A DNA stretch of 32,651 nucleotides. Origin: Chitinophagales bacterium. Lineage in GTDB: Bacteria > Bacteroidota > Bacteroidia > Chitinophagales > UBA2359. How positions within the stretch are numbered: the stretch's first letter is position 1; each line of letters opens with the position of its first letter. Location: contig JAHDDV010000019.1 of assembly GCA_020629205.1 (NCBI GenBank), forward strand, positions 1 through 32,651, written 5' to 3'. The notes under the pieces are model-generated. The model saw only the letters and a list, made by a program, of their open reading frames with translations. It had not been told where the DNA came from and ran no database searches. The position numbers and the translations under genes were made by a program. Shown piece after piece: positions 3,651 through 32,651 of this stretch.

Positions 3651-3675
3651 TTGTTTAAAGGTTTGAGGATGTAAT

Positions 3676-5970: not shown

Positions 5971-5977
5971 GTCTTTG

Positions 5978-7192: not shown

Positions 7193-7199
7193 AGTAGTA

Positions 7200-8036: not shown

Positions 8037-8046
8037 GTTTTCTATT

Positions 8047-9558: not shown

Positions 9559-9569
9559 GCATCTGTTGA

Positions 9570-12500: not shown

Positions 12501-12644
12501 TCCCTTGATGACCACATTAACGCCGGGTAGAGGAAACTGATCGGTCGCATCTAGAACAGTGCCGGAGATGCTGCGCTCTTGTGCTTGTAGAGTAGCAAAG
12601 GCTACGAAGCAGAAGGCTATGGAAAACGTCAGTAGTTGCTTCAT
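9570..12644 (-). CDS. susC: SusC/RagA family TonB-linked outer-membrane protein
   Basis: N-terminal CarboxypepD_reg-like domain ISGTVLDATDQFPLPGVNVVIKGTSQGTVTDLDG; plug LDEVVVIGYGVQKRSNISGAVSTI; LYIVDGVPV; AAAIYGTRAANGVILITTK; terminal TYRTGFSLSF. Confidence 0.97.
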   Translation of the reverse strand: MKQLLTFSIAFCFVAFATLQAQERSISGTVLDATDQFPLPGVNVVIKGTSQGTVTDLDGAFKLEVPDDASILVFSYLGMLPQEIPASSGPILEVLLSSNEQLLDEVVVIGYGVQKRSNISGAVSTIDSEEISENSASRLETALQGRTAGIQVSQNSGSPGSNLNVRIRGIGTLQNADPLYIVDGVPVEGLDYLNPSDVENISVLKDAAAAAIYGTRAANGVILITTKSGEKNEEGTVSYEQYFGMQSPWKKKKLLTARQYAILSNEAHIAAGVSPLPEFANPDALGDGTDWQEAIFEDAPISNHNLSFYGGSEKSSYGMSANYFSQDGIVGGDKSDFKRLTLRLNAETDVKPWLTTGNNLSLTWFKKHILPENNPNNSPLIRALNIDPITPVKRADGSYAYSNYADTDIANPVNAIEQTFDEWTTNRAVGSVYLEARPIAGLSFRTALSIDATYATRNIFYPIFDLSLFPELNDAPGVEQNDVNNLSKEDLTWRNLQWENILTYEFQFTGDHHLSSTLGTTAIEQQYDQLTGSNSNLPANDFAAAYLANTIDPIASQGAGDDANEYALLSYFGRVNYDYKDRYLLSASLRRDGSSRFGRNNRFGTFPAVSLGWIVSREEFWASGIVDFLKLRASWGKNGNDRFPNYRFTSVVLGGQNYTFGEDEIITNGSVTIAASNPDLRWETNIQTDIGVDIDMFAGRLGFTADYYIRKTEGMIYNPPVPAIVGADAPFTNVGEMMNKGLELALNYRNSAKRFKYNVSGNISFVNNEVVALGDNAEPQISGSIFPGGFASRSDIGHPVASFYGYVTDGIFQSQQEINAHAFQAEDTAPGDFRFADLNDDGVIDSEDQTFIGNPSPDYTYGLSGGIEVKGIELSVFLQGSQGNEIFNNSVRHDFFYTNRPQSLMDRWTGPGTSDSEPRVNLNDPNNNYRVSDYFVEDGSYMRIRQVQLSYSIPNQWLKRIGFKKATVYVSAQNLWTFTKYSGLDPEIGSVGWKDGNPDGLELGIDKGFYPQARTYRTGFSLSF

Positions 12645-12647
12645 GTA

Positions 12648-14183
12648 TTAATGCTTGTAGAATTTGACAGATGCGGATTGTGCTCCTGTACCTACGGTGA
12701 TAATGTAAAGACCAGATGCAAGTTGGTGAATGGGCAGCTTGACTTGGGTTGCATCGGTAACAGTCTCTCCAATTCTTTGTCCCACAATTGAGCTCATGAC
12801 AATTGGGCTTCCAATTGCCAAGCCTTCGACTTCCACGGTTAACCAGTCGCTAGACTGTCCTAACAGTGTGATAGTCGACTTGTTCTCAAGTTCTGCTATG
12901 TCAGTCGGAATTCCACCGCATTGAGCTATGCTTCCGCATAATCCATAGCAAGCGTCAATTATGGTAGGTCCTGAAATTGCATCCATATATCGGTCATTGA
13001 AATTCTCGACTCTTGCACAATCCTGACCTTCTAAATCTTCCTTGCAACTCCAGTCAGGGCAGTTCCCGTTTGCAAATGAGTAATAGCCTTCAAAGCCGGG
13101 AAGACGAGTGAAACTGATCGAATAGACTCCGTCTCCATCCTCATCAGTCATCTTGAAGCTCCCTCCCGGTACACCAAACTCTTCTCCTCCTGCGAGGTAT
13201 ATGTCTCCATTAGGGTCAGGATCAGTCCCATCAGGAAATCCTAGGTTTATCGTAACTTCAACGCCTTCTCCACATTGATAGCAACTGTTCCAGCATACAA
13301 GGGGCATGGTTGTGTCTTCGGTGAGTAATACCTGGCGATTGACAAATTCTCCATCTGGTGAAGCCAGAATGCATCCGGACTGTTCGGTCCCATTGAAAGA
13401 CTCAATAAGGTCAGGGCCTTTGATCCAGAATAGATATTCATGTAATCCGATGGGCAGCTCAATGGAGGTCTCATAAATTCCAATACCGTTGTTAAAAAGT
13501 TCATTGGATTCATTCCAATCATTGAAAGTTCCCATTACGAAAACCTGATCGAATGGATCTGCAAAATCCGATAGATCAAGACTTAGATCAAGGACAGCTG
13601 TTTGATTGGCCGAGCCTTCCTGAATGGTGATATTATCAAAATAGCTGGTGATAAACTCCCCGTTTCCTCCGATATTGAAATCAAAGAACAGAACGAGTCG
13701 ACCAAAGCTGTCTCCGTCCGCTCCCTGGAAAGGGGCCTCAATTGAAGGCAGACTTGTGTTGAAGCAGACCTCAGTCCACTCATCCACGACATCGTTCTCC
13801 ACAATGAAAATCCAATCTGGGCCCTCGCTTTGACTCTGTTCAAGTTTTAATGCGAGATTTCCGGGATGGTCTACGTGAATCTGAACGCATATTTCACCAC
13901 CTTCACTTAGATCTATGCTAAGGTTTTCATTTAGTGAAAAGGCTCCTGCCCATCCTTGTGCATCGGGACCTTTCACGTAGGTACCAACATTTTCACTGGT
14001 ATTGATGCCACTAACATTTGGATTGGCGTCAACTGTGGTCAATAGGCCTTCTTGTGTAACACTCCCAAAGTACTGAAAGTCCGAGCTTGTTTCTGGGCTC
14101 TCAAAATCGATGAGGATTGTCTGGGCAATCATGCTGGCCATGGTAGCCAGACTCATTAGTAGTATTAAGCTGAGTCGTTTCAT
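12648..14183 (-). CDS. T9SS-sorted secreted protein with glycan-binding-like modules
   Basis: Signal peptide MKRLSLILLMSLATMASMIAQ; beta-sandwich-like modules; NCPDWSCKEDLEGQDCARVENFNDRYMDAISGPTIIDACYGLC resembles the repeated domain of 156..3650; C-terminal sorting-like tail IGSPIVMSSIVGQRIGETV...LASGLYIITVGTGAQSASVKFYKH. Confidence 0.75.
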   Translation of the reverse strand: MKRLSLILLMSLATMASMIAQTILIDFESPETSSDFQYFGSVTQEGLLTTVDANPNVSGINTSENVGTYVKGPDAQGWAGAFSLNENLSIDLSEGGEICVQIHVDHPGNLALKLEQSQSEGPDWIFIVENDVVDEWTEVCFNTSLPSIEAPFQGADGDSFGRLVLFFDFNIGGNGEFITSYFDNITIQEGSANQTAVLDLSLDLSDFADPFDQVFVMGTFNDWNESNELFNNGIGIYETSIELPIGLHEYLFWIKGPDLIESFNGTEQSGCILASPDGEFVNRQVLLTEDTTMPLVCWNSCYQCGEGVEVTINLGFPDGTDPDPNGDIYLAGGEEFGVPGGSFKMTDEDGDGVYSISFTRLPGFEGYYSFANGNCPDWSCKEDLEGQDCARVENFNDRYMDAISGPTIIDACYGLCGSIAQCGGIPTDIAELENKSTITLLGQSSDWLTVEVEGLAIGSPIVMSSIVGQRIGETVTDATQVKLPIHQLASGLYIITVGTGAQSASVKFYKH

Positions 14184-14223
14184 AAACATCAAGTTTTAGT
14201 GAATCACCAAACTGCATTCTTGT

Positions 14224-17361: not shown

Positions 17362-17506
17362 CAACTGTGACAGAGACTTGTTCGTTTTCTCAAAGGATTA
17401 TTGGTTGTAAGCTCTTGATTTACAGGTTTTTGTGTAATTGTCTTGGCCCTTTGCTTGTCAATGGCGCCAATAACCGCCAAATGACAATTATTAGGTCAGC
17501 TTGCTG

Positions 17507-17514
17507 TAGCTTTG
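17507..17514 (+). promoter_or_regulatory. Candidate Bacteroidota -7 element (TAGCTTTG)
   Basis: Matches TAnnTTTG and lies 24 bp before the ATG at 17538; no convincing -33 TTG. Confidence 0.35.
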
Positions 17515-17537
17515 TAGTGATAAATAAAAAAAGCTTC

Positions 17538-18791
17538 ATGAAAAGATTATTACTATTTGCAGCGCTAGCCTTTAGCGCATTGCATTGTTATGCTCAGGTG
17601 GATCAAACAACTGTAGGGCCTGGCTATACACAACAGACTTATTACAGCCTCAGCTCTGGTGAATCGAGCTCCGTTAATCACGATAGCTGGGACCTGGCTT
17701 TCTCCACAAATCCAATGGATGCGGGGATTTTCCATAATGATGGTGCATCCCTGGGAGGAGGTGCCATATCTGCGTATCTTCTGAGTGGCACAGACTATGC
17801 AAATCCCGATACTTCTGGTATGCAATTGATCACTTCACAAGAGCAGTCATGGTCGGCAGGTGCCTTCAACCTTATTGCAGATCCTTCGAATCCCTTTGAT
17901 ATGGGCTGGGGAAACTATGATGTGGTAACCCATAGCACTACCGGTACCAAGGTCTTTGTGATTGAAAAGAGAGATGGTACTATGCTCAAACTAATGGTTG
18001 AGTCATTGGTCGATGGTGTCTATACGATCAAGTATGCAAACCTTGATGGTTCTAATGAACAAACCGCAGAAATTAGCAAGATGGCCTTCGGTCAGCGTGC
18101 GCTTGTCTACTTCTCTTTTGACAGCAATGAAGCCGTGGATTTGGAGCCCAGCACTTGGGATCTTATGTTCACCAGATACAAAAGCTTTGTCGAAAATCCA
18201 GGGCAAGAAGGTGAATTTCTTGACTATGGCGTCACCGGAGTGCTGTGTAATACAGACATGTTAGTGGCAAGTGCATCGGGCATTGACCCAACAACTGCAA
18301 ATCACGAAGACTATGCTTTTAGCTCTGACATTGATGCTATTGGTAGTGACTGGAAAACTTACATTGCACCTACCTGGGTGATTTTTGACGATGTGGTTTA
18401 CTGGGTTAAGACACAGGCTGATGAGCTATGGAAAGTTCAATTCCTCGATTTCGAGGGTTCTGCGACCGGTACCATTACCTTGGAAAAGACTTTTCTAGGG
18501 ACTTTTACAAGCACTGAGTCTACCAATGAATTGCAGTCTGAAAACTCTCTAATCCTGTATCCGAACCCAAGCCAAGGCACACTAAACCTAGCCATTGAGA
18601 GCAAAGATGGTAACAAGTCGATTGACTTGACTATATACAATCAGTTGGGGCAACGGATGGATTTCTATCAACTACCCGCAGGGACTGGTTTAAATGTACA
18701 CAGACTAAATCTGGACTATCCAGCAGGTTTCTATCGAGCCGAAATATTGGTGGATGGACAACAAATGGTGAGGTCATTTGTACTACAGTAG
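17538..18791 (+). CDS. HmuY-like secreted protein with T9SS type A sorting domain
   Basis: Signal peptide MKRLLLFAALAFSALHCYAQ; YYSLSSGESSSVNHDSWDLAFSTN and LEPSTWDLMFTRYKS resemble HmuY family motifs; C-terminal LILYPNPSQGTLNLAIES...YPAGFYRAEILVDGQQMVRSFVLQ. Confidence 0.8.
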   Translation: MKRLLLFAALAFSALHCYAQVDQTTVGPGYTQQTYYSLSSGESSSVNHDSWDLAFSTNPMDAGIFHNDGASLGGGAISAYLLSGTDYANPDTSGMQLITSQEQSWSAGAFNLIADPSNPFDMGWGNYDVVTHSTTGTKVFVIEKRDGTMLKLMVESLVDGVYTIKYANLDGSNEQTAEISKMAFGQRALVYFSFDSNEAVDLEPSTWDLMFTRYKSFVENPGQEGEFLDYGVTGVLCNTDMLVASASGIDPTTANHEDYAFSSDIDAIGSDWKTYIAPTWVIFDDVVYWVKTQADELWKVQFLDFEGSATGTITLEKTFLGTFTSTESTNELQSENSLILYPNPSQGTLNLAIESKDGNKSIDLTIYNQLGQRMDFYQLPAGTGLNVHRLNLDYPAGFYRAEILVDGQQMVRSFVLQ

Positions 18792-18845
18792 TACCCTTCT
18801 AGAAAGGCTCTGAAATAGCCAAAAGGAATTTTATTAGAATATTTT

Positions 18846-18874
18846 AATGGGTGTCGATTCATTCGGCACCCATT
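18846..18874 (+). terminator. Stem-loop between HmuY-like gene and TonB receptor
   Basis: aatgggtgtcg / cggcacccatt, 11 bp including one G-U, loop attcatt; no strong T tract, so it could be an attenuator or processing site. Confidence 0.45.
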
Positions 18875-18888
18875 CTTGAAGTTGACCT

Positions 18889-20967
18889 ATGGCAGCAAGA
18901 ATCCTGTTTCTCTTTTGCTTTATCTTCCATGCCACTACCTTACACGGTCAGGATCTTTGGGAAGACATAGATACAAGCCTTTTCAAAAATATTGATTTGA
19001 GTGAAGTTGTTGTGACAGCACAGTATGCTCCAACCGACAGTCGCAATGCCGTACATGAGGTCAAAGTCATCAAGTCAAAGGACATCCAGCAGCAAGGTTA
19101 CACAAACCTTGCAGAAGTCTTAAACCGTCAATTAAATTTTCGAATCACGGCGGATCCGCTTATTGGCAATGGACTAATCATCCAAGGAGTGGGAGGAGAG
19201 AATGTACAGGTAATGATCGATGGTGTAGCGGTGATTGGCCGAGTGAATGGGGTTGTGGATATCTCACAGATTAATCTAAACAATGTTGCCAGGATTGAAG
19301 TGATCGAAGGGGCTATGTCAGCTCAATTTGGTAGCAATGCCTCCGGGGGAGTAATCAACATTATTACCAATAAATCTCAGGTAGAGCGAGTTTCTCTGGA
19401 ACTTCGTAATCAAGCGGAATCTATAGGGATTCTCAGCAATAATCTTGCTCTGGGCCTACAGTTTGGGAAGGTCTACGCCAGTATTAATACTGGTAGGTTT
19501 CGCAGCAAGTTTGCTCCCACAGATAGCCTGCGTGTGTATGAGGAGTTTGTCTTCGCTTCGGGAGAAACCCGAAAAAGCAAAAAGCATCCATGGAATCCCA
19601 AATTGCAATATTCTCTGGATGGAATGCTCCGCTATAAGTTTACAGACTCCATCGATGTACGTTACCAATACAGGATCTTTGATGAGGAACTTCTCAATTA
19701 CGGCGAGTTGCGAAGACCACAATTCAAGCCCTATGCCTTTGACGAATCTTATAATACTAGTAGACAAGATCATAGTCTTTCCGGAGATATCTATTTGAAT
19801 TCTCATTACTACTTGACTACACTTACAGCCTACAATACCTTTGATCGGGTACTTACAACTGAGCAGTATTTCTTCGAAAATGACTCCTCCTCTTTTGTTG
19901 CTTCGGAGGCGGATACCTCAACCTTCAATGCTTTTCTGCATCGCTCCGTATTCAGCTCCATTTATGATGGAAATTGGGATGCACAATTAGGCTTGGAGCT
20001 GGCAAATGAAACAGCCACTGGTAAGCGAATTGCTGATAGTACTTCTACACCCATCAACGAAACATCCCTGGCAAATTATGCTGCCTGGCTTGGGATTCGA
20101 TATAAGCCGACCCAAAACATGACCATCTTAGGGAACCTCCGATACGGTAGCAATTCGAAGTACGACCATCCCCTAATTCCTTCTCTTCACTTAAGTTGGA
20201 AGCCCAATAGAGATTTGACCATCAAGGCCTCCTATGCCCACGGATTCAGAGCGCCCTCTCTAAAAGAATTGCATTTCAGTTTTATAGATGTTAATCATTA
20301 TGTGGTAGGTAATTCCGAACTGGAAGCAGAGTACTCCAAGAATATCACCGCAGGGGCAACTTACAAACTAAATCTACCGGCAGATAGGCAATTGTCCTTG
20401 TCTGGCAAGGTCTTTTACACCAAAATCAGGAACCGTATAGTCTTGAGCGAGTTCGCACCGATTCAGTACACTTACCTAAACCTTGATTCTTATGAGACCA
20501 ATGGATTTAACGCTAACGCAAGTATAGATCCCATCGATGGCCTGAGTATCCAAACTGGCATTGCCTACACCCGGCTGTTTAATGAATTGTCTCGTACCAC
20601 CGATATCGACAAGTTCAATGGCATCACAGAATTACAAAATGAACTGCATTATCGCATCCCGCTGATCGAGACTAATTTCAATATCAGTCATCGATTTTTC
20701 GGAAAGCAAGCGCGCTACTTTACTAATGCAGACGGAGACATCACTCAGTCATTTCTGTCAAATTACAATTTGATTAATGTCAATCTGAGTCGCAACTTTT
20801 GGCAGAATCGACTCTTCGTTTCTCTGGGGATCAAAAATCTATTGGACCAGCAAAGTTTACCGATTGTCGGTCAGGATGAAGATCAACACAGTGCCGGAGG
20901 ACGTTCACAATTAATCGACTTCGGTCGAACCGCTTTTGCTAAAGTCAATTTGCGTTTCTCTTATTAG
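18889..20967 (+). CDS. TonB-dependent outer-membrane receptor (likely heme/metal uptake with the HmuY-like protein)
   Basis: Plug domain LSEVVVTAQYAPTDSRNAVHEVKVIKSKDIQQQGYTNLAEVLNRQ; VQVMIDGVAVIGRVNGVVDISQINLNNVARIEVIEGAMSAQFGSNASGGVINIIT; terminal FAKVNLRFSY. Confidence 0.92.
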   Translation: MAARILFLFCFIFHATTLHGQDLWEDIDTSLFKNIDLSEVVVTAQYAPTDSRNAVHEVKVIKSKDIQQQGYTNLAEVLNRQLNFRITADPLIGNGLIIQGVGGENVQVMIDGVAVIGRVNGVVDISQINLNNVARIEVIEGAMSAQFGSNASGGVINIITNKSQVERVSLELRNQAESIGILSNNLALGLQFGKVYASINTGRFRSKFAPTDSLRVYEEFVFASGETRKSKKHPWNPKLQYSLDGMLRYKFTDSIDVRYQYRIFDEELLNYGELRRPQFKPYAFDESYNTSRQDHSLSGDIYLNSHYYLTTLTAYNTFDRVLTTEQYFFENDSSSFVASEADTSTFNAFLHRSVFSSIYDGNWDAQLGLELANETATGKRIADSTSTPINETSLANYAAWLGIRYKPTQNMTILGNLRYGSNSKYDHPLIPSLHLSWKPNRDLTIKASYAHGFRAPSLKELHFSFIDVNHYVVGNSELEAEYSKNITAGATYKLNLPADRQLSLSGKVFYTKIRNRIVLSEFAPIQYTYLNLDSYETNGFNANASIDPIDGLSIQTGIAYTRLFNELSRTTDIDKFNGITELQNELHYRIPLIETNFNISHRFFGKQARYFTNADGDITQSFLSNYNLINVNLSRNFWQNRLFVSLGIKNLLDQQSLPIVGQDEDQHSAGGRSQLIDFGRTAFAKVNLRFSY

Positions 20968-20982
20968 AAGCACAGCTGAATT

Positions 20983-21160
20983 CGGTCGTTGCTGGCTGCT
21001 GCCCGTGCTCCGCTAATACTCAGCACTCTGCTAGCTGCTACAGCTCAGCCACTAGCGTCTCCTCCTATCGTCGGAGCCACTATTGGCTGGCTTCCGCCAC
21101 GCTATCATAGCACTTCGTTCCGCTGCGCCCGGGGCTTATTGGCCACGGCGATTTAGCGCG
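20983..21160 (+). repeat. Copy 2 of dispersed intergenic hairpin repeat
   Basis: Blocks shared exactly with the reverse complement of 28438-28571: cccgtgctccgctaatactc (21002-21021), ctcctatcgtcg (21062-21073), cgttccgctgcgcccggggct (21116-21136). Confidence 0.85.
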
Positions 21161-21184
21161 CTGGCATTTCTCCTTGAAAGTCTC

Positions 21185-22327
21185 TTATCTGTAGTGAATA
21201 GCCAGCTGGCCAAGTTGTCCAACAATCTTAATGGAATCTTTCATCGACAAGTGAGATCCATCTTCATGTATCCAACGTTTCAATGGCTGTTCACAAATCT
21301 GTGCCGTAGCCTGTTTATCCCCGTAGAATTTCTTCATCCTCAAGAATATCTCTACATCAAACAACCAACTGGTCAGAAAAGGCTTTTCAAACATGTTCTC
21401 AGCGACCTCCCTCGTCATTACCTTTGCCCCGCACTGTGTATCGTTGAAGGGCATTCCAAGTATTCGCCTGATAATTAAATTGACGGATTTACTGATGATG
21501 GCTCTGGAGTCTTCTTTGGTTATATCTGCACCCATTCTGGCCATTCTAGAACCACCCACAATTTGGTAATTGCCAGTAGAAATGGTTTGCACCAAGTCGT
21601 CAAAGTCGCGAAAGTCAGTCGATAGATCTGCATCCAGATATCCAAAGTAGTCTAGCTGGGTGTCTTTGCTCAAATGAAGGATACCTTGTCGGACAGCCTC
21701 AGCTTTTCCTCCGTTTTTTTCACAGTCGAAAACGCTAATGTGATCAGGATTCTTGCTGGCTAGTGCAGTTAGAACTTCCAGCGTTTTGTCTTTGCTTCCA
21801 TCATTCACAAAGCAGAGATGATAGCCAAGATTACTATTGGCAAAATCGAGAAATTTTTGGCTGTTGATTCTGTTTTCTTCATTATAGCAAGGAATGACTA
21901 CCCCCACTAAGTCCTTTTGAATCCTCTGTACTTCCTGATTGGGTTGGTAGTTGTTATTGAGCAAGAGCGGTTGTTTGAGCAACTTTTGAATTCGGATCAA
22001 TAACTCATTTAGACCCACTGGTTTTTGAATATAATCATCAGCACCTGCTTTGAAGGCTTGTACGATTGCATCTTCAGCCGCTTCGCCCGACATAACGATG
22101 ATCGGCACATCACTTTGTCGCTGTTTTCGAATACTTTCCAGCACTTCGAAGCCCGACATATTGGGCATCTTGAGGTCCAGAATCATCAGATCTGGCTCGA
22201 CTTGATCGAATTTCTCAATGGCATTCAAGCCGTCATTGGCAAAGTGAATGTCAAATCCCTCATTTTTTAGTTTATGATCAATTGATCTAAGGATCATTGG
22301 TTGGTCATCTGCTGCTAAAATTTTCAT
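21185..22327 (-). CDS. Response-regulator receiver domain fused to ALG5/DPM1-like family 2 glycosyltransferase
   Basis: REC: acidic D7/D8, phospho-acceptor D51 (MILDLKMP), S80 (VMSGE), K102 (IQKPV). GT2: VVIPCYNEE, FVNDGSKDKT, YLDADLSTD, DTQCGAKVMTREVAENMF, SWLFDVEIFLR. Confidence 0.93.
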   Translation of the reverse strand: MKILAADDQPMILRSIDHKLKNEGFDIHFANDGLNAIEKFDQVEPDLMILDLKMPNMSGFEVLESIRKQRQSDVPIIVMSGEAAEDAIVQAFKAGADDYIQKPVGLNELLIRIQKLLKQPLLLNNNYQPNQEVQRIQKDLVGVVIPCYNEENRINSQKFLDFANSNLGYHLCFVNDGSKDKTLEVLTALASKNPDHISVFDCEKNGGKAEAVRQGILHLSKDTQLDYFGYLDADLSTDFRDFDDLVQTISTGNYQIVGGSRMARMGADITKEDSRAIISKSVNLIIRRILGMPFNDTQCGAKVMTREVAENMFEKPFLTSWLFDVEIFLRMKKFYGDKQATAQICEQPLKRWIHEDGSHLSMKDSIKIVGQLGQLAIHYR

Positions 22328-22512: not shown

Positions 22513-25500
22513 GTGAGCATAAGAGAAGAGGATCGATATTACTATCTAGCCATAATTGTAGGCCTTGCCTTCCATGCTACGGTGCTATTCTCTACCTTTA
22601 CGAAGACGTATGACGCCTATGTGCACATGTTTTTCGCTGAGCACTATGCGAATGACTGGTTTGGTTCCTGGAGTTTCAAGTGGTATACAGGGTTTACAGT
22701 TACTAGTTACCCTCCATTGATACACCAACTGGTGGCTCTTGTATCCAAATTTTTAGGCATAAAGCTTGCCTTTTTGTTGGTAGCCAATCTTGTGGTGCTG
22801 GTTTATCTAAGAGGTGTATACACCTTTTCAAAGATTTGGGTTACAGATCAGGCAGCTGCAGTAGCAACGATGGTGGCCGTATTTTACCCTTCCTTTGTAG
22901 AAGCACTGCATTTATTCGGACAGCTTCCAAGTATTACTGGCGTCTCTTTGCTGCTAAATGCCTGTCCATTTGTGTACCGCTGGGTACGATTCAATCAGTG
23001 GAAGTATCTCCTGGGTTCGCTTAGCCTTCTGGCAGCCACAACCTCGGCACATCATGTTTCCACCATCTTTGGGATGGTATTTTTTGTTCTGCCAGTGATG
23101 GGCACAGCTTTAATAGATCGTACTGCCGACCAATCTGTCGATAGGGAGGTTCGCATGAGAGCTTTTCTTGTTGCCATTGTGAAAATATTACCCAGGGCCA
23201 TTGCATTTGGTCTCCTTGTAATTGCCATAGTAATCACCTTTGTTTTTCCCTATTGGTATTGGTCGAAGGCTGATCCTATTGCACAGGTTTCGATTCCACA
23301 TGGCAGTAGAGACAACTATCTTGAGGTCTTGTCTTCAGGATTGGTTTTCTTTCTTATACCCTGGGCCTACCTGCTCTTTGTGCTACCCTACATCTTTCGA
23401 CGTGCTTTTCAAAAGCGTTTTGTGTTTCTTGGTCTTTCTCTGACCCTGGCCTTTGTACTTGGAACAGGAGGCACAACACCGATTGCCCGTACTTTATTGG
23501 GCGATACGGCTTTTGAAATTCTTACTTTGGATAGATTCACCTTTTGGGCAACAATGCTCAGCTTGCCTTTTGTAGGCGAGCTAATGCATCGAGTTTTGTC
23601 TGGTGATGGAAGGGCCTTGATTTCCAAGTATTGTGGACTCACTTTTCATAGGATTCTCATGGCCTGCACAATGCTCGGCGCAGTGTTGACAGCAGTGTTG
23701 ATAATCAATACGGGTTACTTTCGACCACTGCAACCACAAGAGATCGACATCAAGCCAATCGTCAATTTCTTGAGCAAGGATATGCACGATCATTGGCGGT
23801 ACCTGACGCTGGGTTTTGGTGATCAGATGGCCTGGCTTTCTGCCAACACCTCTGCTTTAACTGTTGATGGGAACTACCACTCTGTTCGACGTCTACCGGA
23901 ACTTACAACAAGGGCTGTCGAGCGTCTGGAGAATGCCAAATATCTGGGAGAGGATGGACTTGCCGCCCTTCAGCAGTTTCTGACACTGCCGGAAAAGTAT
24001 CACTTGAAGTACATTTTTTCGAATGATAAATTCTATGAACCACTGCTGAATTTTAGCGGCTGGCTTCGGACAGGACAACTTGAAAATGGTATAGTAGTAT
24101 GGGAAAGACCGGATGTGCCCCCATTGCCTGAGATCTTGCCCAGCAAGCAAATTCCTCCATATCAATCGCTGATGTGGGGAATCCTACCGCTTAGCTCTTT
24201 GCTGCTTGTGTTGATTGTGCAGACGGCAAATCGTGGCTTTCCAGAAATTAGCCGGAGCCTGAATCAAGGCATTCCATATGAGAATGACCGATTTGAAAAG
24301 CTGAAGCTGGGTTTGCACGCGCTCTACATCCTTTTTGCTACAGTGATTGCTATTGCTTTTTTTAAGCACATTTACGCCACAAATCACAAGCGCTTTTCTC
24401 CCGACAATCTTGTAGAAAGTTACTTTGACGCTCTGGACTTCAAATACTTCCGGGCTGCCTATAATTTGTTTGATCCTACCTTACGTCCTTCATTCGAGCA
24501 GTACATGCTGGAGCTGTCACTTGAAGATGGAATCCTGGCATCATATGCCAAACTCAACTCGGTGCAGTGCCAGCAGTTGCCAAGTGAAGATGGGACCATT
24601 GTACCTCTTAGAATACAGGCTGAGTGGATGACCTCCCTGATGACCTACGATACCAATCACTACATGGAGGCAATAGAGCTAGAAGATGGCTGGCACCTTT
24701 TGCCCCAACCGGCGGAAATCCGAATTCCCCCAGAACAATTTTATGGGATACCTGCAGTGGATTTCAAGAAGCAAGGTCGAAGGAAAGCTACAGTAGGTAA
24801 GACAGATCGAACAGACGAGTTGGATCGGCCTGATGTCTATATCACTCAAGCAAATCTTGTATCTACCGGAGATGGCTACGCTGTAGTAGGAGAACTAGTC
24901 AACATTGATACTCATCCAGCTTATGTCAGCGTAACTGCCGTGTTATATGATGACAAGAATAGGGAGATATTGAGGTATAATGCCAGGGATATAATGAAAC
25001 ATCATCTGCTGTCCAGGGAGTCTACTCCATTCAGAGTGGACTTTGATGAAATTGCAAGACAAAGCAAGATCAACATGGGCGCTGACTCCAGCTTTCTCAG
25101 CAAAGCGCCTCATGATTTTGTTGTATTTGTGAACTCTATGGTGAGCTCCGACAGCCACTACGTAGAATATGGCCTGCAGGAGATAGCTGTTGATTCAAGC
25201 TTTAGAGCTGTAGTTTACAATTATGGAGCTCATGAGATCAATGTGCCACAGGTGCTTGCCGCACAGTATTTGCATGGAAAGCTGCAATGGGTGGAAGGGC
25301 AGTACCTTCCTATGGGCATTCGTCCCCAAAGGTGGAAACAGACAAATGTGACTCGAAGGGATCTTACTGAGCTCAGAATCCTGAGAGAGGGCAGTGACAG
25401 AAACTTATTTGTTAACAACAGCAGCAGATCAATTTATTCCCAGAATTTGCCGGACCTGCTGCAAGGGCAGTTGTTTGAGATCGGAGATGGTGAGCAGGTG

Positions 25501-25539
25501 CAGCTGCTATTGAATCCCTTCGTTAATTTTTCCAATTGA
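22513..25539 (+). CDS. Multi-spanning GT-C-like membrane protein (PTPS-related membrane family look) with C-terminal NTF2-like and FxLYD-like extracytoplasmic domains
   Basis: Many TM helices; early loop YDAYVHMFFAEHYANDWFGSWSFKWYTGFTVTSYPPLIHQL; later SPDNLVESYFDALDFKYFRAAYNLF and VYITQANLVSTGDGYAVVGELVNIDTHPAYVSVTAVLYDDKNREIL; GTG start at 22513. Confidence 0.75.
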   Translation: MSIREEDRYYYLAIIVGLAFHATVLFSTFTKTYDAYVHMFFAEHYANDWFGSWSFKWYTGFTVTSYPPLIHQLVALVSKFLGIKLAFLLVANLVVLVYLRGVYTFSKIWVTDQAAAVATMVAVFYPSFVEALHLFGQLPSITGVSLLLNACPFVYRWVRFNQWKYLLGSLSLLAATTSAHHVSTIFGMVFFVLPVMGTALIDRTADQSVDREVRMRAFLVAIVKILPRAIAFGLLVIAIVITFVFPYWYWSKADPIAQVSIPHGSRDNYLEVLSSGLVFFLIPWAYLLFVLPYIFRRAFQKRFVFLGLSLTLAFVLGTGGTTPIARTLLGDTAFEILTLDRFTFWATMLSLPFVGELMHRVLSGDGRALISKYCGLTFHRILMACTMLGAVLTAVLIINTGYFRPLQPQEIDIKPIVNFLSKDMHDHWRYLTLGFGDQMAWLSANTSALTVDGNYHSVRRLPELTTRAVERLENAKYLGEDGLAALQQFLTLPEKYHLKYIFSNDKFYEPLLNFSGWLRTGQLENGIVVWERPDVPPLPEILPSKQIPPYQSLMWGILPLSSLLLVLIVQTANRGFPEISRSLNQGIPYENDRFEKLKLGLHALYILFATVIAIAFFKHIYATNHKRFSPDNLVESYFDALDFKYFRAAYNLFDPTLRPSFEQYMLELSLEDGILASYAKLNSVQCQQLPSEDGTIVPLRIQAEWMTSLMTYDTNHYMEAIELEDGWHLLPQPAEIRIPPEQFYGIPAVDFKKQGRRKATVGKTDRTDELDRPDVYITQANLVSTGDGYAVVGELVNIDTHPAYVSVTAVLYDDKNREILRYNARDIMKHHLLSRESTPFRVDFDEIARQSKINMGADSSFLSKAPHDFVVFVNSMVSSDSHYVEYGLQEIAVDSSFRAVVYNYGAHEINVPQVLAAQYLHGKLQWVEGQYLPMGIRPQRWKQTNVTRRDLTELRILREGSDRNLFVNNSSRSIYSQNLPDLLQGQLFEIGDGEQVQLLLNPFVNFSN

Positions 25540-26759
25540 TGGTTCTCTTGAGATACATATTGTCAGTGGGTTTACTGGTATTGCTTCTTGCTTGCTCAGA
25601 TAGGGCTGGCCAGTCGATTGTGTATCAAAACGAGCGAGGGCATTTTCTCCTGTTAGACTCCGTCTATCTGGTCGGAGAGGAGCTTCGAATTCCTTTTGTA
25701 CATGAGGGTCACTTGACTAGACCTTCGCTTTTAGTTAGCAATTCACAGACTGATCTGTTGATTGCTGCTGAGGCAGATAGTTCGGTGTTTGTATTGACCG
25801 AAAATCACAGCAATCGGGCTGGTATAGTGTTGCTCAGCTTGCTTGGACAGTCCAGACTTCTTGATGAACGAAGCATCGCGTTTAGGCCAAGGCAGGCCAA
25901 TGGTTTGATAGATCTCTTTACTGGCCCAAACACAGTAATGGCTGGTACTGGTGCACCAATCATGACGGTTGCTATATTGAGAGATGAATTTGGTAATCCT
26001 GTTAGCGAGGGCACTCTTGTTGAGTATACAAACACCTCAGCTGTGGGGATTGGTGAATTTCTAGATACAACGAAGCACTTGTGTAGCTATCAGAAATTTT
26101 ATGGAGGGGAGCTTCGTGACAAACACTTCATTGCCGTCGCATCCGGAAATGCTCATTCCAGGCAAAACGAGTATCGAGTAGAAAGTGCCTGGCCAGCAAA
26201 CTTGCAGATTCAATTGGAGGAATTCTTTCCTTTCGCTGACTCGCGACAGGTCTTGTGGATCTCTACACAGCCAATTTTTGATTCTTTTGGGAATGAAATG
26301 CCAGATGGGACATTAGTAGATTTTGAAGTATGGCAAGAGGAATCGCAGATCGCCGCCTATGTATCTAAAACGGTCAATGGAATCGCTAAGGTTCGAATCC
26401 AAAACCCTTCTACTAGCTGTCTCTGGAGCATCAATGCTAGTTGTAGAAATGCAGTCCAAAGCAATGTTCTCCATTTGGAATTCGATGCCATTGTTGATAA
26501 GATCGCAGTGCAGTTTCAGGAAGATTCTTGTCAGTTTCTTATCGGACCTGTTTCCTCCTCTTTGGGGCAGGTGGTGCCGGACGGATTTCCCATTGAACTG
26601 CGTTTTGTCTCACGTGATTTCGAATACTATCAGGACCTTGAGTTGCTAGGGGGTTATTGCTCCTACAAACTCCCTAGAGAACAATTTCAGCCGGATAAAG
26701 ATTATGATTGTGAAGTTATTTCGGGAGGAGTGAAGCGTATCATTAGGTTTGAACTATGA
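25539..26759 (+). CDS. Putative lipoprotein with repeated invasin/Big_1-like Ig motifs
   Basis: Lipobox LVLLLACSD; repeated D.FGN...DGT.V.F motifs: LRDEFGNPVSEGTLVEY, IFDSFGNEMPDGTLVDF, SSLGQVVPDGFPIELRF; start overlaps the upstream stop. Confidence 0.65.
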   Translation: MVLLRYILSVGLLVLLLACSDRAGQSIVYQNERGHFLLLDSVYLVGEELRIPFVHEGHLTRPSLLVSNSQTDLLIAAEADSSVFVLTENHSNRAGIVLLSLLGQSRLLDERSIAFRPRQANGLIDLFTGPNTVMAGTGAPIMTVAILRDEFGNPVSEGTLVEYTNTSAVGIGEFLDTTKHLCSYQKFYGGELRDKHFIAVASGNAHSRQNEYRVESAWPANLQIQLEEFFPFADSRQVLWISTQPIFDSFGNEMPDGTLVDFEVWQEESQIAAYVSKTVNGIAKVRIQNPSTSCLWSINASCRNAVQSNVLHLEFDAIVDKIAVQFQEDSCQFLIGPVSSSLGQVVPDGFPIELRFVSRDFEYYQDLELLGGYCSYKLPREQFQPDKDYDCEVISGGVKRIIRFEL

Positions 26760-28249
26760 GTAGGCAATGGAAAATACTTAGACGGTTGTTAGCAGCCGTG
26801 ATTTGTCTGCTAGTGATGTTCAGTGCGGTGATGATCTTGGGAGCTATTGAGGCCTACTACAAGCAAGGAGCAGAAGCAGAGCCAATGCTTCACTTGACCA
26901 AGGATTTACTCACAAGCCATCATCCAGAAGTTGCCTGGCTCCCTGATAGTAAGAATCTGGAAGGGGAAATCAACATGTACCTACGGGCTAGCATATCAGA
27001 GGCCTACGCGGAGAGCTGGCATATGGCAAACCTTTGCTTGAAAAACAAAAGCGAACTGGGCTTAGCAGATTACTTTGGCGAACGACTGGCTGAAGCGCAG
27101 AAGGCTGCCTTCCCGAGCAATGATACCAAAATCGAGCGTGTTGATCTTAAGCATCACTTGAAGTTGCATCTACTTAGTTTGGATAAGCGATTGGTTGCCT
27201 TTTCAGATTCTGCAGTTTGGCTCAAAAAGTCCATTCAGAGTCATCCTGAAGGTCCAGCAATTGTTCAGGATTTCCAACATTCTTACTCAGTGATAATGAC
27301 TCTTGAAGACGGAAGGTGGAGAGTTATTGAAATGCATCAAGAGCAAGCAAATTCTATGGTGTCGACTGCTTCTCCAACAAATACTACGAATCTCGATACA
27401 ATCGAAGCCATTAACTACTACCCGCCGGAAAAGCCCTGGAAACTCTTTTGGTCAGCATATGATCACGATCTTGTAGAACGCGATTTTGGAATTATTCAAG
27501 CGCTAAAGTACAATGCTGTTCGGGTGTTTATACCTTTCGATGAGTTTGGTGGAGCGAGAGTGAAACAGAAGCACTTAGAGAACCTGCTTCATCTGCTGGA
27601 CATAGCTTCATGCAATGATCTTTCCGTAATTGTTACGCTGTTCGATTTTCCTGTTGGATTCTCTCTTGACAAGTACACAGCATACGATAGTCAATTGAGA
27701 AGTATAGTTCCGGAGCTTAGTGGACATAAAGCCCTGATTTTGTATGACTTAAAGAATGAGCCAGATATAGATTTTCGGTATCACGAAGAAGCTGAAGTGC
27801 TGAGATGGTTGGCTCACTTTGTCAAGCGTATCAAGGACTTAGATGCTGTTACCCCTGTCACCATTGGATGGGCAAGTATTGAGCATGCCGATAAGCTTCA
27901 GGAGGAGCTTGATATTGTTTCCTTTCACTACTATGGTGATGCAGACAAACTTGGCTCGAAGATCGATGTACTTAAGCAGGCTGTAGGCGCGAAGCCAATA
28001 CTACTGAGTGAGTATGGAATGAGTAGTTATCGCTCTCTTTGGTATCCGATTGGAAACAGTCTGGAGAAAAGGCAGAGTTATCTTTCAGAGATTGAAGCTG
28101 TGATTGCAGAAAAAGAGCTACTTGGAGCTGCTCTTTGGTGCTACTCCGATTTTGAAGAAGTTCCTTCCTATGTGGCGGGGAGTAAACCCTGGATCAAGGC
28201 CACTCAGTCCAGGTTCGGTTTGTTAGATGAAAATCTGGAATTGAAATAG
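26756..28249 (+). CDS. Membrane-anchored GH5/clan-A-like glycoside hydrolase with N-terminal NTF2-like region
   Basis: N-terminal TM; LYDLKNEPDIDF (acid/base Glu), VSFHYYGD, ILLSEYGMSSY (nucleophile Glu), ALWCYSDFEE; ATGA overlap with upstream stop. Confidence 0.8.
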   Translation: MSRQWKILRRLLAAVICLLVMFSAVMILGAIEAYYKQGAEAEPMLHLTKDLLTSHHPEVAWLPDSKNLEGEINMYLRASISEAYAESWHMANLCLKNKSELGLADYFGERLAEAQKAAFPSNDTKIERVDLKHHLKLHLLSLDKRLVAFSDSAVWLKKSIQSHPEGPAIVQDFQHSYSVIMTLEDGRWRVIEMHQEQANSMVSTASPTNTTNLDTIEAINYYPPEKPWKLFWSAYDHDLVERDFGIIQALKYNAVRVFIPFDEFGGARVKQKHLENLLHLLDIASCNDLSVIVTLFDFPVGFSLDKYTAYDSQLRSIVPELSGHKALILYDLKNEPDIDFRYHEEAEVLRWLAHFVKRIKDLDAVTPVTIGWASIEHADKLQEELDIVSFHYYGDADKLGSKIDVLKQAVGAKPILLSEYGMSSYRSLWYPIGNSLEKRQSYLSEIEAVIAEKELLGAALWCYSDFEEVPSYVAGSKPWIKATQSRFGLLDENLELK

Positions 28250-28271
28250 GCAGGTGCTAAAGTAGCTGAAA

Positions 28272-28373
28272 CCTTCAAGGGCATCTAATTCTATCCTCCT
28301 TCGAGGGTCGTCAGTCGCATGACCAAGGCTCTTCCTCGCACTCTGGCTGACGAAAAGATTGCTTCCTTGAAGG
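28272..28373. repeat. Nested inverted repeats in intergenic region
   Basis: ccttcaagg (28272-28280)/ccttgaagg (28365-28373) enclosing tcgtcag (28308-28314)/ctgacga (28347-28353). Confidence 0.5.
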
Positions 28374-28427
28374 CGTCGCATGGTTTGTTTACATAGCGCT
28401 AAAGCATTCTCAGCTACGAGTTTGGTC

Positions 28428-28580
28428 GGTGCTAAATAGCCCCGGGCGCAGCGGAACGAGCGCCGCAGATGCCGTGGCGATTGCCAGGCTGACGGGGGCT
28501 CGACGATAGGAGAGACCACGTCAGCCCGGCAAGAGCAGGCAGATGTGGTGGGAGTATTAGCGGAGCACGGGTAGAACGAC
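28428..28580 (-). repeat. Copy 3 (inverted) of dispersed intergenic hairpin repeat
   Basis: Reverse complement carries the same three blocks as copy 2 at near-identical spacing; internal 14-bp hairpin ttgccaggctgacg (28481-28494)/cgtcagcccggcaa (28519-28532). Confidence 0.85.
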
Positions 28581-28628
28581 ACTACGAGTCGATCTGCAGG
28601 GCTCCAAAAATAAATTGATAAGCAACAG

Positions 28629-30671
28629 ATGGGAGAAAATAGAATATATGTGTGTTGGTTGCTATTATGCTTGACCTGTCTTGGCGTTCAAGCACAACAG
28701 AGTCTCGAACAGGGATTTTCCTATCTTGAAGAAGGTAAATTAGATGAGGCCGAGGCCTTTTTTGAACGTGCGATTTCACAAGAGCCAGATTCAAAGACGG
28801 CAAGACTTTGCTATGGACGTGCAGTCGGATTGCAGGGGGAGACTGAGCGTGCGATGGGGATTTTTGAGGATTTACTTACAAGTTACCCAGGAGATTTCGA
28901 ACTGCTACTCAACAAGGCTGAAGCACATATGTGGATGGAGGATTATGTCGCAGCAGAAAAACTCTATGCTAATCTGGTGAGTCAGAAGCCTGCTGATTTT
29001 GTCGCAAATCTTGGTTACGCAAACGCCCTGACTTCATTAGGAAATCACGTGAAATCGCTTGAGTATATAAAAAAATGTATCGAGGTAAATCCATACAGCG
29101 AATCGGCTTTGGTTTCGAAGAAGTACATTTTGCTCGCCAATGCAAGCGAACTTCGAGATGGAAGAAATTATGGATTAGCAAGGGACCATCTACTTGAAGT
29201 TTTGAGTGATTTTCCTGAAGATAGGGAAGCGCTTATTAATCTTGCGATTGTTGAGTTGCATCGGCAGAAGCCACGACGGGCTCAAAGATATTATCATCGT
29301 TTGTTGCCGAGTGATCCCTATGAATCAGCACTTGGCCTATCCTCTGTCAGTTTGATACTGGGTAGAAAGAAAGAGGCTTTGTCTTATGCGGAGGATGCAC
29401 TGAGAGAATCGCGGGATGCAGGAGATATTCGTGCTGATATTCAGTATTTAAATTGCCTAGGAGCAATGGGCAGGTTTTCCAAAGCCGATACAGTTCTGCA
29501 CGAACTGGAGGACCGATATCCCAAACGAGCGGAGGTGACCTTGGCAAAGGGTCGGCTGCGTATCTGGGACCAGGAGTATCAAGAGGGCTTTCATAATTAT
29601 GCTCGTCTCGATACTTTGAATGGATTCGAAGTATTGCTTGGATTGGCCGAAGCGGAAAGGGCTTTGGGTAATAGGACAGCTGCAATCCAGCGAATCAATC
29701 GGGCTTTACAGGTTCAGCCACAAAATCTTGATGCGGAAAGACTTCGGGAAGCGATCTATCGAGAAGGGGCAACATCCTTTGAATTGGCACATTGCATTTC
29801 GACCGATGCCTCCGGTGTTTGGGCTGATATTTCAAGCCTCAAGCTTGGTACACCAATCGGCGAAAGACATCGACTTTTGGTTAGTGCATCTAGTAGGGGA
29901 GTACGTTGGCAATCAGAAGGGTCCAGTATTAGGCAGTCCATCTTTGAGTTGGGGGATGAATGGCGTGCTTCCAGAAATACAAATTTGCGGGCTAGTGTTG
30001 GGCTTGCAAACTCTTCGAATAACTCACCAAGGCTACTTTTTGGAGCCAGTGTTGATCAAAAGATCGGCAAGTATCAAGGACTTGGTGCGAGATATTATCA
30101 AGAGTTGCATAATTATACGCCAGAGCTTGTGGCCAGTGGAATTACGATGAATCACTTTTTGTTAAGTTATTCCTATTCGCGTCAACGAGTTCCTGGATTG
30201 TACGCCCAGTTGATGCACACTCGACAGTCGGATGGAAATAAACGGAATTTGCAATTTGCGTCTTTATATTATGGATTACGGCAGTCACCCAGCTGGAAAG
30301 CCGGGTTGAATTTCCTTCGTTTTAGTTTTAGCGAATCAGTTCCGGAATTGTATTTTAGTCCAGATCGGTTTTTATCCTTTGAGGTCTTTACTCAGGCCGA
30401 CAATCTGTACGTAGAGCGACAGCGGTTTAAGTATATTGGGTTGCTGGCCATCGGTCAGCAATGGGTTGAAGACAACGCTCGACAGAATAGCTTGCGGCTG
30501 GAAGCAAAATTGGGATACCGGATGTTTCATGAGTTTCTTTTGTATGGTTTCTATCAGTATAGTAGCGCCTCTCAAACTTCCACCTTGGGATTTAAGTCAA
30601 GTCGATTTGGGCTGTGCCTAGAAGGTAAATTGTACAAAGTAAAGAAACCCGAAGCAGCATCTAACCTTTAG
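28629..30671 (+). CDS. TPR-repeat protein with C-terminal outer-membrane beta-barrel (YaiO/PgaA-like arrangement)
   Basis: Signal peptide ending VQAQ; TPR-like repeats (GFSYLEEGKLDEAEAFFERAISQEPDSKTARLCYGRA); C-terminal alternating aromatic beta strands such as GLGARYYQELHNYTP and LLYGFYQYSS. Confidence 0.82.
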   Translation: MGENRIYVCWLLLCLTCLGVQAQQSLEQGFSYLEEGKLDEAEAFFERAISQEPDSKTARLCYGRAVGLQGETERAMGIFEDLLTSYPGDFELLLNKAEAHMWMEDYVAAEKLYANLVSQKPADFVANLGYANALTSLGNHVKSLEYIKKCIEVNPYSESALVSKKYILLANASELRDGRNYGLARDHLLEVLSDFPEDREALINLAIVELHRQKPRRAQRYYHRLLPSDPYESALGLSSVSLILGRKKEALSYAEDALRESRDAGDIRADIQYLNCLGAMGRFSKADTVLHELEDRYPKRAEVTLAKGRLRIWDQEYQEGFHNYARLDTLNGFEVLLGLAEAERALGNRTAAIQRINRALQVQPQNLDAERLREAIYREGATSFELAHCISTDASGVWADISSLKLGTPIGERHRLLVSASSRGVRWQSEGSSIRQSIFELGDEWRASRNTNLRASVGLANSSNNSPRLLFGASVDQKIGKYQGLGARYYQELHNYTPELVASGITMNHFLLSYSYSRQRVPGLYAQLMHTRQSDGNKRNLQFASLYYGLRQSPSWKAGLNFLRFSFSESVPELYFSPDRFLSFEVFTQADNLYVERQRFKYIGLLAIGQQWVEDNARQNSLRLEAKLGYRMFHEFLLYGFYQYSSASQTSTLGFKSSRFGLCLEGKLYKVKKPEAASNL

Positions 30672-31333
30672 CTGGATTTTGCTTTGCTGTACTTGTGATA
30701 GTTGATATGGGGAAGACAGAGCACTGCCCAGACGATGAAGGCAAAGAGTAGCGAGAAACCCATGTATTGGATGATGTTGTCAACTCGACGTATTGCGGAG
30801 ACTGCCATCGGATCAGAGAAACCTGCTTGAAGTTCACCATAATATCGCGCAAATTTTGTACCTACGGCTGTAAAGGATTGCAGTGCTACCAGAGCGAATA
30901 TCGAGAGGCATCCCAGAGCAAGCGCAATCAATTTGCGCTTAATGGATATTGGCGTGGATAGGCAAAGTGCCAGAAAGAAACTGAGGATCATTCCCAATTT
31001 TACCCAAGAGTTTACTGGATAGGTCACCGGGCTAATTTGTGCGCTGTTTCTTCCCTCTGCTTTTGCTTTCTCAATTGCAATTTCTTGCTGCCTTTCACTG
31101 GAAAGCTGTACTAGAGAATCAAATCCCTTGAAGCGACCTAGCTCTTCGGGACGCAGGCTCCTGAATTTTGCCGTTCCGCCATCGCGATAGCTGCCAGTGG
31201 CCATATTTCCAATGGCATTGTATGTCTTGCTAATAAGGGATTTGACTGGTGCCACATGACCAAGAATCAAGAGCCCAAAGTAGAGAAACAGAAAGAGGCC
31301 AATTCTTTTGGCGATAAGCATCCCTAGTTCCAT
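30668..31333 (-). CDS. Exosortase-associated multi-spanning membrane protein
   Basis: Overlaps the end of the exosortase gene; N-terminal TM, an extracytoplasmic segment of roughly 70-80 aa, then three TM segments. Confidence 0.6.
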   Translation of the reverse strand: MELGMLIAKRIGLFLFLYFGLLILGHVAPVKSLISKTYNAIGNMATGSYRDGGTAKFRSLRPEELGRFKGFDSLVQLSSERQQEIAIEKAKAEGRNSAQISPVTYPVNSWVKLGMILSFFLALCLSTPISIKRKLIALALGCLSIFALVALQSFTAVGTKFARYYGELQAGFSDPMAVSAIRRVDNIIQYMGFSLLFAFIVWAVLCLPHINYHKYSKAKSS

Positions 31334-31914
31334 TGCAGTTGATTCTTCTTATTTGTCCATCCAATCCAATACAGTAAGCAGGCAATTGTTAATGCTATAA
31401 AGAGCACTTGCCAGACACTGACATGCATTAGCTCAAATAGAGACGGAATATTGATTCTAAACCAATAGAGGCTGACTATTCTGATGATATTGAGAATTAC
31501 CAGAAACAGAGTCCCGAATACCAGAGCTGAGACTTTGTCCTTCCATATTGTAGGAAAAATCAAAATGCCAACCCAGAATATAGCAAGGGCCTCAATTCCA
31601 TCACAACCGTTCTTGATATTGATGGCGATACCTTCACTTGTGATTGAATCCCCAATTACTTTTACTGGATAGCCCACGAGGGAAAGGATGGCTCCGCTTA
31701 TCCAGGCATAGAATTCTGAAAGCGGTTTGACAAAACCAGATTGAAAGAATGGGGTAGACCACAGCAGATAAAAGAGTCCAATCAAAGCGACGAACTGTAT
31801 CAAAAGTCGATTGACTGTGATTGCCCATAGATCTTTGATTTTCTGTCCAATCGATCTATTGGGTGATCCTAAATTCGAATCAGATTTCACAGACCCATTT
31901 TCATTCTTGGTCAT
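31324..31914 (-). CDS. Exosortase family transpeptidase/protease, candidate XrtH type
   Basis: Multi-TM with exosortase catalytic triad context: Cys in NGCDGIEALAIF, Arg in LNIIRIVSLYW, His in FELMHVSVWQ; VPTMGTWG protein next door. Confidence 0.88.
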   Translation of the reverse strand: MTKNENGSVKSDSNLGSPNRSIGQKIKDLWAITVNRLLIQFVALIGLFYLLWSTPFFQSGFVKPLSEFYAWISGAILSLVGYPVKVIGDSITSEGIAINIKNGCDGIEALAIFWVGILIFPTIWKDKVSALVFGTLFLVILNIIRIVSLYWFRINIPSLFELMHVSVWQVLFIALTIACLLYWIGWTNKKNQLQWN

Positions 31915-32057: not shown

Positions 32058-32651
32058 CTACTTCTTAGAATTGATCATTGCAACAAGGTGTAGCAAGTAG
32101 GCGAAAATTGGAGCAGCGATGGCTGTACCAATGATATCAACCATAGCCAAAGTGCCATATGTCAATAATGTCCAGCCAGTTGCAGCCAAAACCAGCGCTC
32201 CAACAAACAAGGCAGCTTGCTTGAACATGAAGCTGTTGAATGGGTAGCTGCTGAACTTATTCCACTGGAATAAATTGATTTCCGAAGTACTTCCATTGGC
32301 AGTTTGGATTCGACCGACAATCACATTCAGGAACAAAAAGTTCAATGTCAATAATGCCAAAATCATCAAGCCCCAAGTACCCATTGTTGGTACGGTAGAG
32401 ATGTCGACTGCAGTACAATCAGCATCACAAGAGTTTGAAATTGGCAGTGTATCTACGCCATTGGTAAAGCTTGCGCTGTATCCAGTGCCTGGAACGTGGT
32501 AGAAGTTAGTGAAATAAGTTCCAGCAGGGTTTTCTGTCCAGACTGGAGTTGTAGCAACACCAGCTGCATCAAGTACACCAGTTGCTCCTGCAACCATTGT
32601 CCATGTTTCGCCTGGTCCAGAAGTAATGATTACTGTTTCGTAGAAGAATTC
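32058..32651 (-). CDS. Membrane protein with internal IPTLxxWG-CTERM-like motif (5' end truncated by window)
   Basis: VPTMGTWGLMILALLTLNFLFLNVIVGRI followed by two more hydrophobic segments; frame stays open upstream of the listed Met to the window edge (EFFYETVIITSGPGETWT-MVAG...). Confidence 0.75.
   Translation of the reverse strand, partial: EFFYETVIITSGPGETWTMVAGATGVLDAAGVATTPVWTENPAGTYFTNFYHVPGTGYSASFTNGVDTLPISNSCDADCTAVDISTVPTMGTWGLMILALLTLNFLFLNVIVGRIQTANGSTSEINLFQWNKFSSYPFNSFMFKQAALFVGALVLAATGWTLLTYGTLAMVDIIGTAIAAPIFAYLLHLVAMINSKK

Follow-up and report, generated by a model that had tools for sequence, protein, structure and literature searches.

Response regulators mostly work through DNA binding or second messengers, and response regulators with enzyme outputs are also known. 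A glycosyltransferase (GT) output has been described in archaea: REC-BcsA-like regulators of Methanobacteriaceae (MTH_548) combine one or two receivers with a GT2-superfamily glycosyltransferase (PMC5847659). In Vibrio fischeri the HnoX-HahK-SypF(HPt)-SypG pathway, in which H-NOX, kinase and HPt proteins act together, governs the syp polysaccharide on nitric oxide (NO) (PMC12369376, PMC8738867); more widely, H-NOX and NosP-type heme NO sensors influence biofilms via kinases, and the output of these circuits in Proteobacteria is mostly c-di-GMP turnover (PMC8738867).

Here we analysed a 32,651-nucleotide stretch of a Chitinophagales genome (contig JAHDDV010000019.1, assembly GCA_020629205.1; hereafter the window), in which one gene encodes a receiver fused to a GT2 domain (REC-GT2). 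Like REC-BcsA, this protein has the form of a response regulator with a GT2-superfamily enzyme as output; REC-BcsA, however, is archaeal, has a PF13641 output and is reported from three genera only, whereas REC-GT2 carries a soluble ArnC/ALG5-type GT and belongs to Bacteroidota, and REC-BcsA is not reported to be tied to H-NOX/FIST phosphorelays or to an exopolysaccharide locus of the kind seen here (PMC5847659). The concept of a receiver-GT is thus not wholly new, since a receiver with a BcsA-like GT had been reported from Methanobacteriaceae (PMC5847659). A sequence-only reading of the window that called a direct sugar-transferase output unusual is partly borne out: computation supports a canonical receiver on a GT2 domain of the polyprenyl-phosphate sugar transferase type, and its suggestion that phosphorylation may gate synthesis of the sugar donor is a prediction. 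The output of the V. fischeri pathway is the DNA-binding SypG, whereas here the receiver sits on the sugar transferase itself (PMC12369376, PMC8738867); and in contrast to the c-di-GMP outputs of Proteobacteria (PMC8738867), the window's own genome gave no GGDEF match. Within the incomplete coverage of the open-access literature, we found no papers on REC-GT fusions in Bacteroidota or on their linkage to H-NOX or FIST genes.

A receiver and a GT2 domain share one intact reading frame

The minus strand of the window holds a single intact ORF of 380 codons at the position where the sequence-only reading had placed a receiver and a GT2 domain in one frame, a placement that is correct apart from the strand, which it had left unsaid; the plus-strand frame over the same interval contains several stops (Table 1). 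Pfam recognised Response_reg at residues 3-113 and Glycos_transf_2 at residues 143-312 (E 6e-22). The receiver had been described as complete, and indeed all residues expected of the class are present, namely the acidic pocket, the phospho-acceptor Asp, the Thr/Ser and the Lys (D7, D8, D51, S80 and K102). The GT2 domain contains a DAD motif at 232-234, DTQCG at 296-300 (DTQCGAK, 296-302) and WLFDVE at 321-326 (WLFDVEI, 321-327), the latter two as the same reading had reported. Hydropathy analysis across the 380 residues found no hydrophobic stretch above threshold, and no transmembrane segment is predicted.

Table 1 Features of REC-GT2 and its flanking genes in the window
Feature	Position	Strand	Basis
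REC-GT2 fusion protein, 380 aa, complete ORF	21185..22327	-	ORF, Pfam, conservation
Receiver domain, residues 3-113 (D7, D8, D51, S80, K102)	21989..22321	-	Pfam PF00072 E 1.3e-29
Interdomain linker, about residues 115-141	21905..21985	-	Alignment; low pLDDT 124-131
GT2 domain, residues 142-380, resembling polyprenyl-phosphate sugar transferases	21188..21904	-	PF00535, nearest solved sequences/folds
Divergent partner, 1008-aa membrane protein with C-terminal beta-sandwich region, GT-C-like	22513..25539	+	Weak PTPS_related match
Ig/invasin-like protein with N-terminal membrane segment, family F2	25536..26759	+	
Membrane-anchored glycoside-hydrolase-like protein, family F5	26756..28249	+	Weak GH2_C / GH158 similarity
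TPR protein with barrel-like C-terminal part, family F6, weakly PgaA/PrsT-like	28629..30671	+	

The fusion is conserved in Bacteroidota

A frameshift or an assembly join between two genes would have undone this architecture; both are ruled out by our scan of a genome collection, in which the fusion is kept essentially full length, at 58-80% identity, in at least 77 independent named loci, so that it is neither a chance arrangement nor a chimera. These 77 loci, the best matches listed from that scan, are all from Bacteroidota and include Flavobacteriaceae, Saprospiraceae, Chitinophagaceae and Leadbetterellaceae; the Flavobacteriaceae genera carrying the fusion include Maribacter, Zobellia, Aquimarina, Cellulophaga, Winogradskyella and Algibacter. 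Among 120 relatives the fusion is found at 54-81% identity, with unfused GT2 homologues in two. In a sample of 396 genomes from the phylum, 15 gave a match at E 1e-40; 12 of these genomes carry the fusion (the window's own counted) and three an unfused GT2 only. In the window's genome full-length REC-GT2 is present as a single copy, the remaining matches being ordinary receivers or GT2 proteins.

Alignment of 102 fusions shows that D51 and K102 are each invariant (102/102), that position 80 is always S or T, and that D8 is kept in 100, the other two having His. Both acidic residues of the GT DxD motif are similarly constant (D232 in 101 of 102, D234 in all), on the last receiver helix E108 and R112 hardly vary, and the linker between positions 118 and 142 varies from 19 to 26 residues. 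In a tree of the GT domain a single change is enough to part the fused rows from the unfused ones. One fusion event would fit this pattern, but with only six distant unfused rows the tree falls short of proof. The two sequences with His at position 8 are second, tandem REC-GT2 copies in two genomes (L123:8445-9584 and L120:10186-11358), and both retain D51 and K102; they are possibly altered receivers partnered with a canonical copy.

The GT2 domain resembles polyprenyl-phosphate sugar transferases

Solved sequences matching the GT part at E < 0.001 were restricted to ArnC, the Pyrococcus furiosus dolichyl-phosphate-mannose synthase (DPMS) and GtrB; every one of the seven is a member of the polyprenyl-phosphate sugar transferase class, although the similarity is distant (phmmer E 8e-10 to 1e-7, with fold matches at about 22% identity). 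A predicted structure of REC-GT2 (pLDDT 84, built from 42 sequences) gave the same picture: in a fold search its GT part, modelled as a GT-A fold with the DxD motif, was led by the ArnC, DPMS and GtrB classes, and its receiver matched VicR/YycF-type receivers. The DTQCG and WxFDVE motifs are like those of ALG5-type enzymes. PF00535 is the top Pfam match to the GT (78.7 bits) and PF13641 scores 23.0 bits, under its cut-off of 27, which rules out an orthologue of the archaeal REC-BcsA.

REC-GT2 therefore shares with ArnC, GtrB, DPMS and ALG5 a GT-A domain with DxD, and has its nearest solved sequences and folds among them, but differs in its N-terminal receiver, in the phosphorelay genetically tied to it in relatives and in the lack of detectable membrane helices. 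The C-terminal transmembrane helices typical of ArnC and GtrB are absent, so we do not regard REC-GT2 as an orthologue of either; sequence and modelled fold together suggest that its GT2 domain resembles the polyprenyl-phosphate sugar transferases.

The surrounding genes resemble an exopolysaccharide locus

Upstream of REC-GT2, and divergent from it, lies the gene for the 1008-aa membrane protein, which most relatives have next to REC-GT2 or no more than 10 kb away. Within flanks no longer than 10 kb at the best 77 loci, we found this GT-C-like family near REC-GT2 in 56, the Ig-like family in 55, the hydrolase-like family in 54 and the TPR/barrel family in 51; the counts for a GT4 and a flippase are 57 and 58. 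The GT-C-like gene was not seen in the fetched flank at the other 21 of the loci listed, partly because of short contigs. In relatives the locus unites GT4 glycosyltransferases, a Polysacc_synt_3 flippase and the TPR/barrel protein, while the GT4 and flippase homologues of the window's genome are neighbours on a different contig (C258). Judged by its gene families, this conserved set looks like an exopolysaccharide locus, with the TPR/barrel protein as a candidate outer-membrane export component. The GT4, flippase and TPR-porin call to mind PelF, PelG and PelB; those proteins matched no Pel model, and we therefore do not claim a Pel-type identity.

STT3, PglB and AftA are users of polyprenyl-linked sugars, and a model of the 1008-aa partner (pLDDT 68) bears a weak resemblance to them, with low TM-scores. 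Its Pfam matches to PTPS_related are also weak (best E 0.00028; the one scored against the cut-off falls below it), and together these weak matches and the moderate model are no more than suggestive of a GT-C-type glycosyltransferase. In two relatives the neighbour of this membrane protein gene, again divergent from it, is an unfused GT2, so the pairing of GT2 and membrane protein exists without a receiver.

STAS-domain proteins recur in REC-GT2 loci (for example L054:12561-12863, L113:18532-18876, L107:11175-11456 and L035:8066-8455), one family being present in 25 of the 77 listed, and are found beside unfused GT2 genes as well; they are a possible further regulatory input to the locus. In the nearest relative, G001, a cytochrome P450 gene (L110:5575-6936; L034:11258-12619) adjoins REC-GT2; it is not there in the window.

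H-NOX, FIST and phosphorelay genes often accompany the fusion in relatives

Of the 77 loci listed, 28 encode a small protein that matches Hpt weakly (Pfam E 0.02 to 0.0002) and in which the motif VHK(L/I)K never varies. In at least nine Aquimarina loci this HPt gene is immediately next to REC-GT2 and convergent with it, with no LytTR gene beside; many loci also encode a kinase together with a LytTR regulator, and FIST plus FIST_C proteins and H-NOX proteins are found at some. Genomes of two orders share a conserved run of receiver, H-NOX, PAS kinase, FIST, kinase, HPt and LytTR genes, followed by TPR/barrel and polysaccharide genes; the LytTR regulator and the single-domain receiver of this operon could be the main outputs of the phosphorelay. 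The H-NOX proteins of relatives have the HNOB domain (PF07700, E 2e-37 to 2e-51) and the proximal His of the family, and the YxSxR heme motif is present in all ten examined.

Across the sample of 396 genomes, H-NOX is found in 11 of 12 genomes with REC-GT2 and in 15 of 384 without (Fisher p 1.1e-13, shared ancestry being ignored), and FIST in 10 of 12 against 78 of 384 (Fisher p 8.5e-6, with the same simplification). In eight of the 11 genomes H-NOX lies on the same contig, 14-22 kb from REC-GT2; physical linkage in several families is support separate from the co-occurrence tests. The sole exception among the 12 fusion genomes is that of the window, a draft (91% complete) in which we found no H-NOX and no free HPt of the Maribacter type. 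Its contig C288 does have, at one end, a FIST gene and then a kinase of the same type, and its contig C26 encodes a PAS-kinase-REC-HPt protein, whose HPt is the only one detectable by Pfam in this genome and which is 39% identical over 607 aa to a Lacihabitans kinase encoded next to H-NOX and near REC-GT2. These parts are scattered over different contigs of the draft assembly.

A proposed route from signal to polymer

The fusion, its residue conservation, its neighbourhood and its co-occurrence with sensor genes are computational observations; catalysis, the sugar, the pairing of HPt with D51, the direction of control and the role of NO as cue are what we infer from the families concerned. We think it probable that REC-GT2 serves a phosphorelay as its response regulator and that its output is the making of a polyprenyl-phosphate sugar destined for an exopolysaccharide. 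A cue would act through a kinase and an HPt protein on D51; the GT2 domain would most likely transfer sugar from a nucleotide sugar to undecaprenyl (polyprenyl) phosphate at the cytoplasmic face, and the lipid-linked sugar would probably go to the GT-C-like membrane protein whose gene runs divergently, in a pathway that would also include the GT4, flippase, hydrolase-like, Ig-like and TPR/barrel proteins. Phosphorylation of D51 would probably alter GT activity, oligomeric state or membrane placement, and altered sugar-lipid synthesis would in turn change the polymer that the membrane enzyme makes for export. In relatives the phosphate would come from a kinase-HPt phosphorelay linked to H-NOX and FIST, whose genes lie beside the locus, and in the window's organism the likely inputs would be the FIST-kinase pair and the kinase-REC-HPt protein; an extracellular cue, plausibly nitric oxide, would set polymer synthesis post-translationally.

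A different arrangement, which we regard as rather unlikely, is that the H-NOX/FIST phosphorelay drives only LytTR and transcription while another kinase feeds REC-GT2, the linkage then reflecting one co-regulated biofilm programme. Such an arrangement would suit an operon in which the LytTR response regulator gene follows that for HPt, and a window genome without H-NOX, but it sits poorly with the Aquimarina loci, where HPt adjoins REC-GT2 with no neighbouring LytTR gene, and with the way in which H-NOX tracks REC-GT2 over the sampled genomes. We consider it improbable that the receiver is instead a constitutive docking or dimerisation module, bringing the GT to the membrane or to a biosynthetic complex with phosphorylation playing a minor part: the strict conservation of D51, K102 and S/T80 would be needless in an unphosphorylated scaffold, and an HPt phosphorelay is linked to the locus, even though an enzyme without a transmembrane helix would need recruitment, and the near-invariant E108 and R112 lie on the last receiver helix, which participates in OmpR-family receiver dimers.

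The remoteness of the match to ArnC, DPMS and GtrB, and the lack of their membrane helices, would suit a GT2 domain that is a receiver-regulated polymer-forming or glycan-decorating transferase acting on a soluble or lipid-linked glycan, instead of a polyprenyl-phosphate monosaccharide synthase; against this stand the uniform class of the seven solved sequences, the ALG5-like motifs and a partner membrane protein that may be of GT-C type, and we give this reading little credence. With the fusion placed in a conserved polysaccharide locus in many Bacteroidota, and nitric-oxide-sensor genes usually close by, polymer synthesis may be switched by an environmental signal directly, not via expression. 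More tentatively, and as a possibility to which we would not yet commit, a gas-sensing phosphorelay (H-NOX, FIST/NosP, kinases and HPt) may phosphorylate a lipid-linked-sugar enzyme and bypass both transcription and c-di-GMP, an alternative NO-to-biofilm wiring in Bacteroidota. Bacteria without c-di-GMP synthases could then couple the making of their matrix to a gas signal by controlling the enzyme itself. The predicted output, the sugar-lipid step of a polysaccharide pathway, occurs in cultured, largely marine and testable genera (Maribacter, Zobellia, Aquimarina, Cellulophaga and Winogradskyella), and an otherwise unnamed conserved locus gains a candidate function.

Other features of the window

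At the contig end, on the minus strand, an XrtH-like exosortase gene and a gene for a protein with a VPTMGTWG motif and a hydrophobic stretch lie side by side (31324-31914 and 32058-32597); the motif resembles the IPTLxxWG-CTERM sorting signal, and the two are a possible exosortase-substrate pair. Exosortase control of the polysaccharide locus was considered and set aside, because the XrtH-like gene has no counterpart in relatives' loci, and we treat it as separate.

An interspersed intergenic repeat, GC-rich (55-58% vs 45%), occupies 20968-21184 and 28250-28628 and also occurs at L131, L003 and L152; its copies are up to 91% identical within the genome, some of them inverted, and copies about 70% identical are found in the related genome G001 (L110, L132). 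At 17367-20967 a T9SS-sorted HmuY-domain protein adjoins a TonB-dependent receptor of heme/siderophore type; the two, a probable heme-acquisition pair, are conserved together in G001 (L110). The minus strand from 156 to 14192 carries a polysaccharide-utilisation locus with a SusC/SusD pair, a PKD protein, a GH16 with Calx-beta, a GH3 and a T9SS-sorted protein with starch-binding-type modules, and divergent from it, at 14447, is the gene for a two-component-propeller (Reg_prop/Y_Y_Y) protein.
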